Assembly (NCBI GenBank): GCA_027063225.1
Contig: JAMOSG010000024.1
Span: 1-40,977, forward strand
Source of the DNA: Helicobacteraceae bacterium
GTDB taxonomy: Bacteria > Campylobacterota > Campylobacteria > Campylobacterales > Sulfurimonadaceae
Length of the DNA stretch: 40,977 nt
Direction: 5' to 3'
Both the position numbers and the translations under genes were made by a program. Shown in pieces: positions 28,661 through 35,210 of the stretch (position 1 is its first letter; every line of letters starts with the position of its first letter). Below the pieces are notes generated by a model that worked only from the letters and a program-made list of their open reading frames with translations, was not told the origin of the DNA and made no database searches.

Positions 28661-28879
28661 ATGGCTAAAGCTGATGTTATTGAAGTTGATGGCAAGATTA
28701 TTGAAGCATTGCCAAATGCAACTTTTCGTGTTGAATTAGATAATGGACATATTATTTTATGTCATATTGCTGGAAAAATGAGAATGCACTACATTAAAAT
28801 TCTTCCAGGTGACCGTGTGAAATTGGAGCTAACTCCATACTCACTTGATAAAGGTCGTATCACTTATCGTTATAAATAG
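28661..28879 (+). CDS. infA: Translation initiation factor IF-1
   Basis: IF-1 occupies the A site of the 30S subunit during initiation. The 72-residue OB-fold protein has [37 protein letters not shown] and the C-terminal [23 protein letters not shown] precedes the ATG. Its stop codon lies within the terminator hairpin that separates it from the minus-strand genes. In many genomes rpmJ follows directly, whereas here it is 3.4 kb away. Confidence 0.98.
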
Positions 28880-28900
28880 AAGAGATTTTCTCTTCTATTT
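28874..28900. terminator. Terminator hairpin between infA and the chorismate mutase gene
   Basis: AAATAGAAGAGA (28874-28885) and TCTCTTCTATTT (28889-28900) form a perfect 12-bp stem with a TTT loop. The infA stop codon is in the left arm. The AT-rich ends and position between convergent genes suggest it can end transcripts from both sides. Confidence 0.7.
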
Positions 28901-28904
28901 ATCT

Positions 28905-29198
28905 CTAAAATTTTCCTGCATTTCTAAATTCTGCAATCTCTGTTTCTACCATCTCATTTATCATAATAGTAAATAACTCTTCCATCATATTTGGATTAAT
29001 GTTTTTTTGAATAGCTAATGTACGAACTCTTTGTTTAATATCATTTAAACGTTCATTTGCTTTAATCTCATCTACACTATTTTTAAAAGAAGCAGCTTGT
29101 GCTACTAAGTGTGCTCTTTGAGAGATAATATTTACAAGTTCTTCATCTAGTTTATCTATCTCTTTTCTAACTTCTTGTAGTGAATTACATTTTTTCAT
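28905..29198 (-). CDS. Chorismate mutase, AroQ type
   Basis: A 97-residue all-helical protein with the AroQ pattern: an N-terminal helix with RKEIDKLDEELVNIISQRAH (residues 11-30), a central Lys (K37), and a C-terminal helix with MMEELFTIMINEMVETE. The stand-alone AroQ fold converts chorismate to prephenate, the first step to Phe and Tyr. PchB-like isochorismate-pyruvate lyase cannot be excluded. It starts three bases after the stop of the upstream cvfB-like gene and probably shares its transcript. Confidence 0.8.
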   Translation of the reverse strand: MKKCNSLQEVRKEIDKLDEELVNIISQRAHLVAQAASFKNSVDEIKANERLNDIKQRVRTLAIQKNINPNMMEELFTIMINEMVETEIAEFRNAGKF

Positions 29199-29201
29199 TT
29201 T

Positions 29202-30041
29202 CTACCCCTTTAGATAAATTCCTGTATCTTTTACCTCTATTGTACCACTATTTTGTAAAGTTGTAAGGGAGCGTTTAAACTCTTTTTTGCTCATATGGAA
29301 AATCTCTTTAATCACTTCGGCATCACTTTTATAGTTATATGGCAAAATACCACCATTTGCTTTAAGCAGTTCCACTACAGTAGCACTTGAACTATTTTTT
29401 GCACCTAGTTTTTTTAGTTGCATATCTAGTTTCCCATCACCTCTAATATTTTTTATGTAGGCTTTAAGTTCATCACCAATGTTAAGAGGTTGAAAAATTT
29501 CATTTTTATATAAAATACCCTCATATTGTCCATCAACTAAAACTTTAAAACCAAGTGGAGTTTTAGCAATAACAACAATTGGAAGTTCTTGATTTTTATG
29601 AAGATGTTTTACTTTTTTACTAAAAGTATCATGAAATTTTTGTGTTGCTACTAGGCGGTGAGTTTTTTCATCGTAAACAACTTTAAGAAAGTATTTCTCA
29701 CCCATTTTTAGTGACTCTTTTTGTAATTTTTTTGGAACAAGTAGATCTTTTGGAAGATTCCAATCCACAAAAACTCCAAATTTCGCAACATCTACAACTT
29801 CAAAAAAAGCAAATTCATCTAATTTTGCTTTTGGTGTGAGTGTAGTAGCAATGAGTCTATCTTCACTATCTGTATATAAAAAAACATCTATAAGCTCTCC
29901 AATTTGCATATCTGGTGTAACGTATGCTTGAGGTAAGAGTACCTCTTTGCCATCTTGGGCACTAAGAAAAAGACCATGAGGAGTCTCTCTTTCAATTTTA
30001 AGTTTGTTGGTAAGTCCGAGTTCTAAAAAAGAGTTTTGCAC
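29202..30041 (-). CDS. S1-domain RNA-binding protein of the CvfB/YitL family
   Basis: The 279-residue protein has S1-like repeats, visible at about 69-110 (FFEVVDVAKFGVFVDWNLPKDL), and ends in a winged helix (about 220-279). This matches CvfB of Staphylococcus and YitL of Bacillus, RNA-binding regulators whose exact role is unclear. The start is GTG at 30041 with AGGA (30049-30052) upstream and a TACAAT box at 30065-30070. It is divergent from the VanY-like gene. Confidence 0.85.
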   Translation of the reverse strand: MQNSFLELGLTNKLKIERETPHGLFLSAQDGKEVLLPQAYVTPDMQIGELIDVFLYTDSEDRLIATTLTPKAKLDEFAFFEVVDVAKFGVFVDWNLPKDLLVPKKLQKESLKMGEKYFLKVVYDEKTHRLVATQKFHDTFSKKVKHLHKNQELPIVVIAKTPLGFKVLVDGQYEGILYKNEIFQPLNIGDELKAYIKNIRGDGKLDMQLKKLGAKNSSSATVVELLKANGGILPYNYKSDAEVIKEIFHMSKKEFKRSLTTLQNSGTIEVKDTGIYLKG

Positions 30042-30064
30042 TAAATTATCCTAATTTTTTTATG

Positions 30065-30070
30065 ATTGTA
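30065..30070 (-). promoter_or_regulatory. -10 box of the cvfB-like gene
   Basis: TACAAT on the minus strand, 23 bp before the GTG start and upstream of the AGGA ribosome binding site. It lies back to back with the -10 box of the VanY-like gene. Confidence 0.4.
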
Positions 30071-30092
30071 CCATTTTTAATGAAACTTTTGT

Positions 30093-30098
30093 TATAAT
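30093..30098 (+). promoter_or_regulatory. -10 box of the VanY-like gene (possibly leaderless mRNA)
   Basis: A perfect TATAAT ends seven bases before the ATG at 30106, with no ribosome binding site between. Transcription would begin at or one base before the start codon. Confidence 0.5.
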
Positions 30099-30105
30099 GG
30101 ACATT

Positions 30106-30846
30106 ATGAAAAGAAGAAATTTTTTAGCATTTTTATCGGTTTCACCTCTTATTACTTCTGAGCTGATGGCAAATAGTGGGGATTTTTATCTCTCTTCTAG
30201 TGAGTATGAGATATTAACTTCTATTAGACATAGGCTTAGACGTGTGCGTCGTCATGTGGGGTATGCAAATTTTAATCTTATCACTTTTAGTGATACTCTT
30301 TATTATGCTAGAAACTATAAATCGATTGGTGCTTTTACAAAGCAAGAGATCGCATTTATTGAAAGACTTTTTTATGAAGATCCTTCAAAGTATGGTTTTT
30401 ATGGAAAACAAACTTGTTTTAATATTGATAATAAAATTAATAAAAAAGAGGTTGTTAAAATTCCACATACGGGGCACTTTTTGTTTCGTGGAAAGCCAGA
30501 ACACGATTACCATAAAATTATTGCAGATGTTGGAACAACACTAAAACTTACATCTGGAATTAGAAATGTTGTAAAGCAATTAGATTTATATGTAAATAAA
30601 ATTTATAATCTTGGTGGGAATATGACTAAAGCAACAATCCAGATTGCTCCACCGTCACGTTCATACCATACAGTAAGTGATTTTGATGTTGGTAGAATCG
30701 ATTGGGGTTATAAAAACTTTACAGCAGAGTTTGCAAAAACAAAAGAGTTCCATGAGATGAGAAAACTTCCATATATTGCTATGCGTTATAAGCATAACAA
30801 TAAAGATGGTGTTCGTTTTGAACCATGGCATGTAGAGGTTATTTAA
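30106..30846 (+). CDS. VanY-like D,D-carboxypeptidase (peptidase M15) with Tat-type signal
   Basis: The 246-residue protein begins MKRRNFLAFL, a twin-arginine motif, followed by a short hydrophobic stretch, so it is probably exported folded by Tat. The C-terminal half has SYHTVSDFDVG (residues 186-196) and EPWHVE (239-244), which correspond to the SxHxxGxAxD and EPWH zinc motifs of M15 peptidases. The spacing from the first His to Asp differs slightly from the consensus. The likely role is trimming of peptidoglycan stem peptides in the periplasm. An ATG three codons upstream exists, but the start at 30106 gives the normal Tat spacing. Confidence 0.8.
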   Translation: MKRRNFLAFLSVSPLITSELMANSGDFYLSSSEYEILTSIRHRLRRVRRHVGYANFNLITFSDTLYYARNYKSIGAFTKQEIAFIERLFYEDPSKYGFYGKQTCFNIDNKINKKEVVKIPHTGHFLFRGKPEHDYHKIIADVGTTLKLTSGIRNVVKQLDLYVNKIYNLGGNMTKATIQIAPPSRSYHTVSDFDVGRIDWGYKNFTAEFAKTKEFHEMRKLPYIAMRYKHNNKDGVRFEPWHVEVI

Positions 30847-30852
30847 CCTCTA
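30833..30852. terminator. Palindromic hairpin across two convergent stop codons
   Basis: TAGAGGTTA (30833-30841) and TAACCTCTA (30844-30852) form a perfect 9-bp inverted repeat spanning the end of the VanY-like gene and the stop of the SPL-like gene. There is no long T run on either side, so termination may be weak or need another factor. Confidence 0.45.
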
Positions 30853-32103
30853 TATCTTATACTCTATACCCACTTTTTTAGCATAGCTACTCAGCATTGC
30901 TCTTTCAAAATCGTTATTTGTAAAATACTCATACCCAAAAGTTTTTTTCCACATTTGATGCTCCTCCATACATAAATAGAAAAATACATTTTTATGCCAA
31001 GGTTTAAAACTCTCATAGGCATGTTTAAACATCTCTACTTTTATACTATCTGGATAAGAAGTTTTTCCACTTGCATCCTCAAGAGGCATTTGTGTAATTT
31101 TACTTTTAAAAGAGCGTTCACGCAGTTGTTTAATAACAGGTTTAATAAAAGTTAATGTTCCAAAACTAACAAGTGCAACTTCATCTGCACTAAACTCTTT
31201 AAGGAGTGTATCGTAAATTTTTTTATAATCCTCCAAATAATTTTCATAATGTACAATTGGGTGAAAGTGAAAACCAACTTTTACACCTTTATCTGCTACA
31301 GCTCTTGCACTTGCTATACGTTTTTCTAAAGAAGCAGTTAAGTGCTCTTCGTTTTCTATAATAATAGGAGTATTAAGCGACCAAGTTGCTAAGATATTTT
31401 TTGGAACATCATTTTCTAAAAGGTAAGCAATATTAGAAGATTTTGTTTTAAATTCTAAAATAACATTTGGATGTTTTTTTGCAAATTCAAATAAAGCATC
31501 TAAAACACCCTCTTTATTACCCCACATTAAAGAATCAGAACTTTGACCTGTTCCAATATGGTATGTTTTATTTGGATCGAGTTGTAAGTTTTTGAGTTTT
31601 GTTGAAAAACCACTGTCAAATGTAATAGTATTTTGATTGTAAAAACTCTGAATTGAACAATAAGAGCAATCAAACCCACAACTTTCAACAGCATCTAGTG
31701 TTAAAAGATTACAACAACGTGTTTTTTCACTTGCTACTGGGCAGAGTCCTAAACCAAATCCCTCTTTCTCTTTTTTGACAAAATTAAACTTTTGCTCCTC
31801 TTTAGGAATAATAGGAGTAAAATTTGTATAGTTATTTGGTTTGTTACGAATTGCATCATATTGCTCTTTGAGTTTTTTCATCACAATTTTTTTATTTGGA
31901 TGATTTTGAAATATACTGCTTATGGGTTGCTCTTGCCACATATCTAAATCGCGTGCAATTTCAAAAATTTGTTTGAGTTCTTGAAAACTAAAACGGTACT
32001 CTTGTGCTTGTTGCGTTAAAAAAATTTGTTCCTCTTGTGGAAGGTTGTAGAAAAATTTGTTTTTTTGTATTGCTTGGTTGAGTTTATCTTCATATCTATT
32101 CAT
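30850..32103 (-). CDS. Radical SAM protein of the spore photoproduct lyase (SPL) family
   Basis: The 417-residue protein has the radical SAM cluster motif CxxxCxxC at Cys142, Cys146 and Cys149 (CGFDCSYC). Further cysteines at 121, 130 and 131 (LCPVASEKTRCC) precede it, as in SPL-like proteins. SplB repairs spore photoproduct thymine dimers in endospore formers. Homologues in non-sporulating bacteria have no settled function, so DNA repair is only a possibility here. The N-terminal 100 residues are helical. The ATG lacks a ribosome binding site and has CATAAT six bases upstream. Confidence 0.8.
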   Translation of the reverse strand: MNRYEDKLNQAIQKNKFFYNLPQEEQIFLTQQAQEYRFSFQELKQIFEIARDLDMWQEQPISSIFQNHPNKKIVMKKLKEQYDAIRNKPNNYTNFTPIIPKEEQKFNFVKKEKEGFGLGLCPVASEKTRCCNLLTLDAVESCGFDCSYCSIQSFYNQNTITFDSGFSTKLKNLQLDPNKTYHIGTGQSSDSLMWGNKEGVLDALFEFAKKHPNVILEFKTKSSNIAYLLENDVPKNILATWSLNTPIIIENEEHLTASLEKRIASARAVADKGVKVGFHFHPIVHYENYLEDYKKIYDTLLKEFSADEVALVSFGTLTFIKPVIKQLRERSFKSKITQMPLEDASGKTSYPDSIKVEMFKHAYESFKPWHKNVFFYLCMEEHQMWKKTFGYEYFTNNDFERAMLSSYAKKVGIEYKI

Positions 32104-32148
32104 AGTAGAATTATGCCATATTTAATAAATTTTTTACATAAAATTTGA

Positions 32149-32154
32149 TATAAT
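32149..32154 (+). promoter_or_regulatory. -10 box of the alpha operon
   Basis: A perfect TATAAT, placing the expected start near 32161 and giving a leader of about 144 nt before rpmJ. No good -35 box is visible at 17 nt. Confidence 0.65.
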
Positions 32155-32163
32155 CCCAACCTG

Positions 32164-32283
32164 CTTTGCTACTCTAACAAAAAACTGTTAGAGTGTTTTT
32201 ACCTTTAGTAGTGATACAAAAGATAAAAACATTGGCAAGCAACAACATTTTTTTAAAAACAAGTTTGCCTAAGAGTAGCAAAG
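32164..32283 (+). promoter_or_regulatory. Structured leader RNA of the alpha operon
   Basis: CTTTGCTACTCT (32164-32175) is perfectly complementary to AGAGTAGCAAAG (32272-32283), which ends ten bases before the rpmJ ribosome binding site. Between the arms lie the terminator-like hairpin at 32171-32200 and a second hairpin GGCAAGC/GTTTGCC (32234-32240 with 32263-32269). ACTCT (32171-32175) can join either the hairpin or the long helix, so the two states compete. A ribosomal protein such as S4 is a plausible ligand, by analogy with E. coli only. Confidence 0.6.
32171..32200 (+). terminator. Intrinsic-terminator-like hairpin (attenuator) in the alpha operon leader
   Basis: ACTCTAACA (32171-32179) and TGTTAGAGT (32186-32194) form a perfect 9-bp stem with loop AAAAAC, followed by G and five T. 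Transcripts from the 32149 promoter could end here as RNAs of about 40 nt. Confidence 0.65.
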
Positions 32284-32304
32284 ATATAACAAGAGGAGCT
32301 TTCT

Positions 32305-32418
32305 ATGAAAGTACGTGCTTCAGTAAAGAAGATGTGTGATGATTGTAAAATTATCAAAAGAAGAGGTATTGTAAGAGTAATCTGCAAGAACCCTAAACAT
32401 AAACAGAGACAAGGATAA
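32305..32418 (+). CDS. rpmJ: 50S ribosomal protein L36
   Basis: A 37-residue protein with the zinc ligands Cys11, Cys14, Cys27 and His32, that is, the C+ form of L36, ending KHKQRQG. The ATG follows GAGGAG (32293-32298). It is the first gene of the alpha operon and lies directly after the structured leader, with rpsM two bases downstream. Confidence 0.97.
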
Positions 32419-32420
32419 CC

Positions 32421-32783
32421 ATGGCTCGTATTTCTGGTGTTGATTTACCTAAGAAAAAACGTATAGAGTATGGTCTAACATACATCTATGGTATTGGTTT
32501 ATACCAATCTCGCAAGATTTTAGATGCGACTGGTATTGATTATAACAAAAGAGTTTATGAACTAAGTGAAGAAGATGTTGCAGCTATTACTAAAGAGATC
32601 CGTGCTAACCATATGGTAGAGGGAGATCTTCGTAAAAAAGTTGCGATGGATATTAAAGCACTTATGGATCTTGGAAGCTATCGTGGACTTCGCCACCGTC
32701 GTGGTCTTCCAGTTCGTGGACAAAAAACTAAGACAAATGCGCGTACTCGTAAGGGTAAACGTAAAACTGTCGGCGCAGCGTAA
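32421..32783 (+). CDS. rpsM: 30S ribosomal protein S13
   Basis: S13 in the 30S head contacts P-site tRNA and bridges to the 50S subunit. The 120-residue protein begins [20 protein letters not shown] and ends with the conserved [20 protein letters not shown]. The ATG follows AAGGATAACC two bases after the rpmJ stop. Confidence 0.98.
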
Positions 32784-32793
32784 GGAATTATAG

Positions 32794-33186
32794 ATGGCAA
32801 AAAGAAAAGCTGTTAGAAAAAAAGTAGTAAAGAAAAATATCGCTCGTGGAATTATCCACATTGCAGCATCATTTAACAATACTCTAGTAACTATTACTGA
32901 TGAAATGGGTAATATGATTGCTTGGAGTTCTGCTGGTAGTCTTGGGTTTAAAGGTTCTAAAAAATCTACTCCATTTGCGGCGCAAGCAGCTGTTGAAGCA
33001 GCAGTAGAAAAAGCAAAAGTACATGGTATTAAAGAACTTGGTATTAAAGTACAAGGTCCAGGATCTGGTCGTGAAACTGCAGTTAAATCTGTTGGTGCGA
33101 TCGAAGGAATTCGTGTTACATTTATGAAAGATGTTACACCATTACCACATAACGGTTGTCGCGCACCTAAGCGTCGTAGAGTGTAA
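32794..33186 (+). CDS. rpsK: 30S ribosomal protein S11
   Basis: S11 lies on the 30S platform near the E-site mRNA. The 130-residue protein shows [19 protein letters not shown], the GSGRETA loop and the C-terminal THNGCRxPKRRRV pattern ([15 protein letters not shown]). GTAAGGAATTATAG precedes the ATG. Confidence 0.98.
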
Positions 33187-33198
33187 GGAGTTTGACTT

Positions 33199-33825
33199 AT
33201 GGCAAGATATAGAGGTCCAGTAGAAAAAATCGAGAGAAGATTTGGGGTAAGCCTTAACCTAAAAGGTGAGCGCCGTTTAGCAGGTAAGTCTGCTTTAGAA
33301 AAGCGTCCATATGGTCCAGGTCAGCATGGTCAACGTCGTAAAAAAGTTTCTGAGTATGGTTTACAACTTAACGAGAAACAAAAAGCAAAATTTATGTATG
33401 GTGTTTCTGAGAAACAATTCCGTGCATTATTTGCTGAAGCAAAACGTCGTGAAGGAAATACAGGTACAAACCTTATCACTCTAATTGAACAAAGATTAGA
33501 CAATGTAGTTTACAGAATGGGATTTGCATCTACTCGTAGATTTGCACGTCAACTTGTAACTCATGGTCATATCCTTGTAGATGGTAAGAAACTTGATATC
33601 CCTTCATACCGTGTAAAACCAGGTCAAAAAATTGAGGTTCGCGAAGCAAGCAAGAACAATGTTCAAATTGCTCGTGCTATTGAGTTAACTAACCAAACTG
33701 GTATCGCTCCATGGGTAGATGTGGACGCTGATAAAGTATTTGGTATCTTTACACGCCTTCCAGAGCGTGAAGAAGTTGTTATTCCTGTAGAAGAGCGTTT
33801 AATCGTTGAGCTTTACTCAAAATAG
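33199..33825 (+). CDS. rpsD: 30S ribosomal protein S4
   Basis: S4 is a primary 16S rRNA binder and, in E. coli, the autogenous repressor of this operon. The 208-residue protein has RRFG near the N-terminus, [21 protein letters not shown], and an S4 domain (about 98-160) with [22 protein letters not shown]. It lacks zinc-binding cysteines (C- form). It is the natural candidate to bind the leader at 32161-32304. Confidence 0.98.
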
Positions 33826-33850: not shown

Positions 33851-34840
33851 ATGAAAAAAATTAAAACTACTCCATTAGCTCCACAAGAGTTCGAGGTAGA
33901 ACAAATTAGTGAGAACGAAGCTAATATTATTGCATATCCGTTTGAAACTGGATATGCTATCTCTTTAGCTCATCCACTTCGCCGTTTTTTATTAAGTTCT
34001 TCTGTTGGTTTTGCTCCAATAGCTATTAAAATAGAGGGTGCTAAGCACGAGTTTGACTCTGTGCGTGGTATGCTCGAAGATATCTCAGATTTTATTTTAA
34101 ATCTTAAAGAGATTCGTTTTAAACTCAATAACGATGCAGAGGAAGCAGAGATTAATTACAGCTTTAGTGGTCCATGTACTATTACTGGTGCAGACCTTAG
34201 TAATGATGATGTTGCAATTGTAACTCCTGATGCTCCTCTTGCAACTCTTAATGAAGATACTACACTTAACTTTAGCATTAAAATTGCTAAGGGTATTGGC
34301 TATGTAGCTAGTGAAGATACTTATGAAGAGTTAGAAGATGGATATATTGCACTTGATGCTTTCTTTACACCAGTAAGAAGTGCAACATATAAAATTGAAA
34401 ATGTTTTAGTAGAAGATAACCCTAACTTTGAAAGAGTTGTTCTTAATATTAAAACAGATGGACAAATTACACCAGTTGAAGCGTTTAGAAACTCATTAGA
34501 GGTAATGTACGCACAACTTGCTGTATTTAATTCAGAGATTAGCATTAAAACTTCAGCTACAATTGAGAGAGTTGAAGAGAATCCTGATATTAAAAAACTA
34601 ACAACTCATATTGATAGTTTAGGTTTGAGTGCTCGTAGTTTTAACTGTTTAGATCGCTCAAATATTAAATATATTGGTGAGATTGTTCTTATGAGTCCAA
34701 GTGAACTCAAAGATGTAAAAAATCTTGGTAAAAAATCATATGATGAGATCGTAGAAAAAGTGCAAGAGTTCGGTTTTGCAGTTGGTGCAGATCTTAGCGA
34801 TGATGTTGTTACTGCATTGAAAAAGAAAATAGAAGCTTAG
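33851..34840 (+). CDS. rpoA: RNA polymerase alpha subunit
   Basis: The alpha dimer starts polymerase assembly, and its C-terminal domain contacts DNA and activators. The 329-residue protein has the N-terminal [20 protein letters not shown] (about residues 36-55) and an alphaCTD (about 240-329) with [16 protein letters not shown] and [24 protein letters not shown] precedes the ATG, 25 bp after rpsD. Confidence 0.98.
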
Positions 34841-34859: not shown

Positions 34860-35210
34860 ATGAGACACCGTCATGGATATCGTAAACTAGGTCGTACAAG
34901 TGCACATAGAAAAGCACTTTTAATGAACCTTAGTATTTCGTTAATTGAACATGGTAAAATTGAAACTACTGCAATGAAAGCTAAAGAGTTACGTTCTTTC
35001 ATTGAAAAACTTATCACTACTGCTGGTAAAGGTGATTCTAATGCTCATAGAGCTGTATTTGCAGTACTTCGTAGTAAAGAAGCTACTAAGAAATTAGTAA
35101 ACGAAATTGCGCCAAGATATGTTGAGCGTAATGGTGGTTATACAAGAATCGTTAAAACTCGTATTCGCCGTGGTGATGCTACACCAATGGCATTTATTGA
35201 ATTAGTATAA
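34860..35210 (+). CDS. rplQ: 50S ribosomal protein L17
   Basis: L17 lies at the tunnel exit. The 116-residue protein begins [20 protein letters not shown] and has the [23 protein letters not shown] end in parts. GAGGAATTGAT precedes the ATG. It is the usual last gene of the alpha operon. Confidence 0.98.

Follow-up and report, generated by a model that had tools for sequence, protein, structure and literature searches.

A candidate ribosomal-protein leader RNA family before the alpha operon in most of Campylobacterota

Ribosomal-protein leader RNAs show how cells balance their ribosomal proteins against rRNA, and how a single protein comes to be bound by RNAs that are unrelated to each other. 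In Escherichia coli, the alpha operon is repressed by S4 through an mRNA pseudoknot, and in Bacillus subtilis S4 represses rpsD by means of another leader (PMC7247131, PMC10931766). For the alpha-operon leaders of several phyla outside Campylobacterota, S4 has been either established or predicted as the ligand, and the S4 leaders listed are those of Gammaproteobacteria, Firmicutes, Bacteroidia, Clostridia, Flavobacteria and Fusobacteriales (PMC7247131). Campylobacterota include Campylobacter and Helicobacter; the main text of that paper mentions neither these genera nor Epsilonproteobacteria, and we found no earlier description of a Campylobacterota alpha-operon leader in the open-access literature searched.

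Here, we analyse an RNA that precedes rpmJ at 32160-32289 of a 40,977-nucleotide stretch of DNA (the window, that is, the whole stretch analysed). Comparison with its relatives suggests that it represents a new leader family, present in most of Campylobacterota, that probably binds S4 and serves autoregulation by acting on translation; judged by these data, the family is new while its kind, the ribosomal-protein leader RNA, is known. As it can be traced through most of the phylum, its core conserved, its pseudoknot present or absent and the whole apparently lost in Helicobacteraceae, the evolution of autogenous control becomes directly testable.

The E. coli S4 leader (RF00140, Gammaproteobacteria) resembles the RNA described here in preceding the same operon, rpsD included, and in having a pseudoknot near the ribosome-binding site, as most of the families here appear to do by covariation. 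It differs in that our leader lies before rpmJ and not rpsM, is built around a P1/P2/P3 junction, has no pseudoknot in the window's family and is unrelated in sequence. The Rfam models, RF00140 (Alpha_RBS) among them, gave no match in the window, whether at gathering score or with E values of up to 10, and none in 12 relatives with E values of up to 0.5. The original prediction of a fold different from that of E. coli thus stands as regards Rfam and sequence, whereas the pseudoknot of most families brings the two closer in kind. The leaders of Clostridia and Fusobacteriales (Eckert and Weinberg 2020, PMC7247131) likewise belong to rpsM-rpsK-rpsD-rpoA-rplQ operons and were predicted from covariation, but come from other phyla (the Clostridia motif was compared by its text description only), and the Fusobacteriales motif carries a GUAA that mimics 16S rRNA. 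The B. subtilis rpsD leader (Firmicutes S4) belongs to the S4 leaders as well and lacks a pseudoknot of the E. coli type; it controls rpsD alone and again has a GUAA rRNA mimic. No such GUAA is conserved here: it is not among the invariant or near-invariant columns of the two alignments described below (A1 and A2).

Fold of the leader in the window

The features discussed are as follows (window coordinates, strand, description and basis).

32122..32129, + strand: TTAATAAA box, promoter element (-38 to -31 from the leader's first base; near-invariant in 93 distinct relatives)
32146..32154, + strand: extended -10 element TGA-TATAAT (sequence; spacing conserved in relatives)
32160..32289, + strand: leader RNA, whole (match to covariance model R1, E 1.6e-14; sole strong match in the genome)
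32164..32175, + strand: P1 5' strand (fold; a helix of 12 bp in the window and of about 8 bp in the family, where 4 of 8 pairs show compensatory changes)
32176..32189, + strand: Pa, short junction hairpin AACA/TGTT (fold)
32192..32233, + strand: P2 hairpin (fold; conserved and covarying; with the T tract 32196-32200 in its 5' strand)
32234..32269, + strand: P3 hairpin (fold; TA directly after it, as in most of the family; pair 86:125 covaries)
32272..32283, + strand: P1 3' strand (sequence, fold and covariation)
32291..32298, + strand: Shine-Dalgarno site AAGAGGAG of rpmJ (sequence)
32299..32311, + strand: possible start-codon hairpin CTTTC-TAT-GAAAG around the rpmJ ATG (pairing test between genomes)
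32305..32418, + strand: rpmJ (ribosomal protein L36), first gene 3' of the leader
32421..32783, + strand: rpsM (S13)
32794..33186, + strand: rpsK (S11)
33199..33825, + strand: rpsD (S4), presumed ligand
33851..34840, + strand: rpoA
34860..35210, + strand: rplQ (L17)

The operon thus has the order rpmJ-rpsM-rpsK-rpsD-rpoA-rplQ, and the leader lies between rpmJ and a divergent gene (30850-32103, minus strand). Three elements that had been predicted can be read directly in the sequence. CTTTGCTACTCT (32164-32175) and AGAGTAGCAAAG (32272-32283) are exact reverse complements and give a perfect 12-bp helix (P1) whose 3' strand ends 7 nt 5' of the rpmJ Shine-Dalgarno site; ACTCTAACA and TGTTAGAGT (32171-32179 and 32186-32194) form a 9-bp stem with a 6-nt loop and GTTTTTA directly 3' of it; and the second hairpin, P3, has the arms GGCAAGC and GTTTGCC (32234-32240 and 32263-32269). 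The segment 32160-32286 (127 nt) folds with -39.0 kcal/mol compared to -20.4 ± 3.4 in dinucleotide shuffles (z -5.5), none of 200 being equally good, a stability beyond chance.

The minimum-energy fold of this segment is a four-way junction of P1, Pa, P2 and P3, where P2 (32192-32233) is an additional hairpin absent from the original prediction and the T tract serves as its 5' strand. AGAGT is present both at 32190 and at 32272, and Pa can extend by ACTCT/AGAGT pairing into the 9-bp terminator-like hairpin (32171-32194), a form found in the window only. When the full 9-bp hairpin is forced, the lower 7 bp of P1 are still paired (-35.5 compared to -39.0 kcal/mol), so the contested bases are only the five of ACTCT; in this folding model, the two states of the window leader are a migration of five base pairs, not exclusive folds.

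Conservation and distribution of the leader

The named members of the window genome's genus are Sulfurimonas. An alignment of 46 leaders (A1) gave the covariance model R1, which has a single strong match in the genome of the window (E 1.1e-13; next best 0.6) and gives, when run on the window, the E of 1.6e-14 listed above. R1 matches all other tested Sulfurimonadaceae loci except L198, down to an E of about 3e-4; some of these loci are inside A1, and so match by construction, and most are outside it. At the level of the genus, 36 of 41 genomes have a match, one copy each, and wherever the contig carries rpsM the match precedes rpmJ on the same strand; no rpsM was found in the five genomes without a match either.

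Compensatory changes are seen in P1, P2 and P3. P1 columns 9:137 of A1 are G-C in 27 sequences and A-U in 14, columns 10:136 are C-G in 36 and G-C in 5, and P3 columns 86:125 are C-G in 33 and U-A in 9. Taking the Sulfurimonadaceae structure as a whole, both sides are changed in 14 pairs, compared to 7.6 in shuffles, and the covariation score is 0.270, compared to 0.169 (none of 500 shuffles as high).

About one-third of Sulfurimonas genomes have an insert of some 70-115 nt, either within P3 or downstream of the leader, ahead of the Shine-Dalgarno site. In many Sulfurimonas leaders an inserted palindromic element, TTCTCACC..GGTGTAGCTTTAGTGACT..TGAGAA, is found at these two places (L007, L011, L014, L026, L029, L030, L042 and L048, upstream of rpmJ; also L263, L264, L267 and L268), and loose pattern searches give further copies elsewhere, clearest in genomes G032 and G055; the element looks like a low-copy dispersed repeat. 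Similar inserts occur in other families. One locus, L006 (genome G004, contig C29), has a tandem double leader around an N, which is probably an assembly artefact.

Related leaders also lie 5' of rpmJ in Campylobacter, Sulfurovum-like, Sulfurospirillum and other genomes, where the order of elements outside Sulfurimonadaceae is CUGNGUGAAGAA - P2 - UUGG - P3 - CC - P1 3' strand. In an alignment of 28 leaders from families other than Sulfurimonadaceae (A2), an unbiased ranking of covariation places P2 pairs on top, 29:142 fifth and 35:138 in the top twenty. These families have a pseudoknot in which the P2 loop (GCACC, CCACU, UCACU and others) pairs with GGUGC, AGUGG, AGUGA and others, the 3' partner sitting some 10-15 nt 5' of the Shine-Dalgarno site; the pseudoknot pair 29:142 is C-G in 12 sequences, G-C in 11, A-U in 2 and U-A in 1. 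The A2 structure has 23 pairs changed on both sides compared to 15.2 in shuffles, and its covariation score is 0.507 compared to 0.186 (0 of 500 shuffles as high; versions slid along the alignment reach at most 0.121), controls that remove relatedness only partly. No pseudoknot is seen in the window or in Sulfurimonadaceae, whose junction carries the short hairpin Pa in addition to P2 and P3. In Arcobacter-like genomes (f7), three of six sequences show a pseudoknot clearly (UUUGUG/CACAAA and similar) and the other three do not.

A second model, R2, which includes neither the pseudoknot nor any Sulfurimonadaceae sequence, was run on a sample of 61 genomes. It recovers leaders in all 16 genomes of the Campylobacter family (f3, assigned by a shared contig) and in genomes of f4, f8, f9 and f10, and f5 and f7 have recognisable, divergent versions. 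By R2, no leader is found in any of the 19 genomes of f2, presumed to be Helicobacteraceae, although their alpha operon is kept, and the named loci of H. muridarum and H. trogontum have no R2 match at the leader's place. Three f2 loci without the leader (L230, L231 and L232) share another conserved stretch 5' of rpmJ around TAGTCGTTTAGGTGATTTGGATAGCCTTTGGAGGACTATAAACTCAATG, possibly a different leader. All strong R1 and R2 matches lie 5' of rpmJ-rpsM on the same strand, the exception being one weak match (E 0.07). The search of rpmJ upstream regions that the original prediction had proposed as its check thus found compensatory changes in the helices and conservation in related genera, and bears out an alpha-operon leader that is conserved and covaries in Campylobacterota.

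On Sulfurimonadaceae, R2 gives matches at the homologous position with E from 0.00036 to 0.5, the window's being weak (32185-32307, E 0.22). P2 has a similar base in all families compared, and the conserved junction bases are GAAGA before P2, UUGG and CCUA. Taking position, order of elements, shared core and weak E-values together, we read the Sulfurimonadaceae form and the pseudoknot form as one homologous RNA. More tentatively, and as a serious possibility rather than a favoured account, one ancestral S4-sensing leader may have served the whole phylum: Sulfurimonadaceae would have lost the pseudoknot, gained a hairpin and kept the P1/P2/P3 core, so that the same protein would read two architectures, and Helicobacteraceae would have dropped this control.

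Candidate ligand and mode of action

S4 is the first candidate ligand because rpsD is present in the alpha operon at all 62 of 62 loci and because of the 'prior ligand' rule of four published S4 leaders; going by operon content and precedent, it is the most likely one. S4 in excess over 16S rRNA would bind the mRNA of its own operon at the P1/P2/P3 junction and, once bound, would stabilise the leader fold beside the rpmJ ribosome-binding site. Translation of rpmJ would fall as a result and with it, by coupling, that of rpsM-rpsK-rpsD-rpoA-rplQ, in parallel to the action of S4 on the unrelated E. coli pseudoknot. In the window, P1 would occupy the place beside the ribosome-binding site that is held elsewhere by the pseudoknot. 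The inserts in about one-third of Sulfurimonas argue against plain ribosome blocking, and for entrapment, mRNA decay or distance effects.

We found no convincing 16S mimicry in the leader, which counts against the S4 reading, as does the retention of the operon without the leader in the presumed Helicobacteraceae. The words TGAAGAA and GCACC/GGTGC resemble parts of the E. coli 16S S4 site; neither is taken as a mimic, since the 16S of these bacteria lacks the first in the region concerned and the second varies across the phylum, for instance to CCACU/AGUGG. The idea that the invariant UCC at the 5' end of the leader pairs with the GGA of the Shine-Dalgarno site was also rejected, as it has 3 bp only and is not found as such in the window.

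The same RNA could instead respond to L36, S13, S11, L17 or a complex, which we regard as unlikely. For such a ligand speak the position of rpmJ, which encodes L36 and lies directly 3' of the leader in every case, and an operon content that singles out no one protein. Against it, L36 is not known as the ligand of any leader. S4 is the ligand in all established alpha-operon and rpsD leaders (PMC7247131).

It is quite unlikely that the leader has no ribosomal-protein ligand and stabilises the 5' end of the mRNA, or acts as an antitermination or pausing signal to RNA polymerase. The 5' end adjoins P1, the distance from leader to Shine-Dalgarno site varies in Sulfurimonas, and E. coli S4 has a NusA-like antitermination role (PMC10931766), all of which such functions would accommodate; but the conserved junction bases (GAAGA, UUGG and CCUA) and the conserved pseudoknot exceed the needs of stability.

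The S4 reading also has to be set against early termination at the 9-bp hairpin and T tract, with the long helix competing, as the original prediction had it. A mechanical terminator scan recovers this site (1 found compared to 0.3 expected), and in the growing transcript the hairpin with its T run forms first (-11.7 kcal/mol at 32200). Across the family, native 5' segments fold at -4.91 kcal/mol compared to -4.43 ± 0.15 in chimeras (0 of 200 as low), an effect mostly due to genera other than Sulfurimonas, and a local fold of the 5' arm, weak and transient, may be general. Such an attenuator is nevertheless very improbable, as the window is alone among some 70 distinct family sequences (5' segments) in having the 9-bp stem, the stem has 3 G-C pairs and its run is five U after a G, this run is one strand of the conserved P2, the conserved 7 bp of P1 coexist with the hairpin and the distal arm is transcribed later than the run. 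We therefore reject a conserved terminator switch; strand exchange between competing folds is not upheld as a mechanism of the family, and the hairpin that resembles a terminator is best explained as incidental and local to the window genome.

Promoter and start region of rpmJ

In many other families, infA lies directly 5' of the leader and rpmJ. In the window (28661-32305), infA is split from the alpha operon by a block of other genes (28905-32103), and with these genes in between the alpha operon needs a promoter of its own. The window shares with 88 of 93 distinct relatives a -10 box, TATAAT, that ends 5 nt 5' of the leader's first base, and this sequence context places the transcription start very probably at about 32160-32162, that is, at the 5' end of the leader. 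The promoter, TTAATAAA-N2-TTTTACATT..TATAAT-N5-TCC (window 32122-32160 and 93 relatives), is nearly as conserved as the RNA, and the TCC at the presumed start is invariant across the window and the 93 relatives. The main texts of published C. jejuni start-site studies do not mention rpmJ.

Around the rpmJ start codon, we scored the flanking segment against its own partner and against partners swapped between genomes; its own partner pairs better (9.70 compared to 9.11 ± 0.11), with a statistic that ignores relatedness. The start codon is flanked by complementarity that is specific to each family (CTTTC/GAAAG, CTTAC/GTAAG and TAACC/GGTTA), which perhaps forms a start-codon hairpin.
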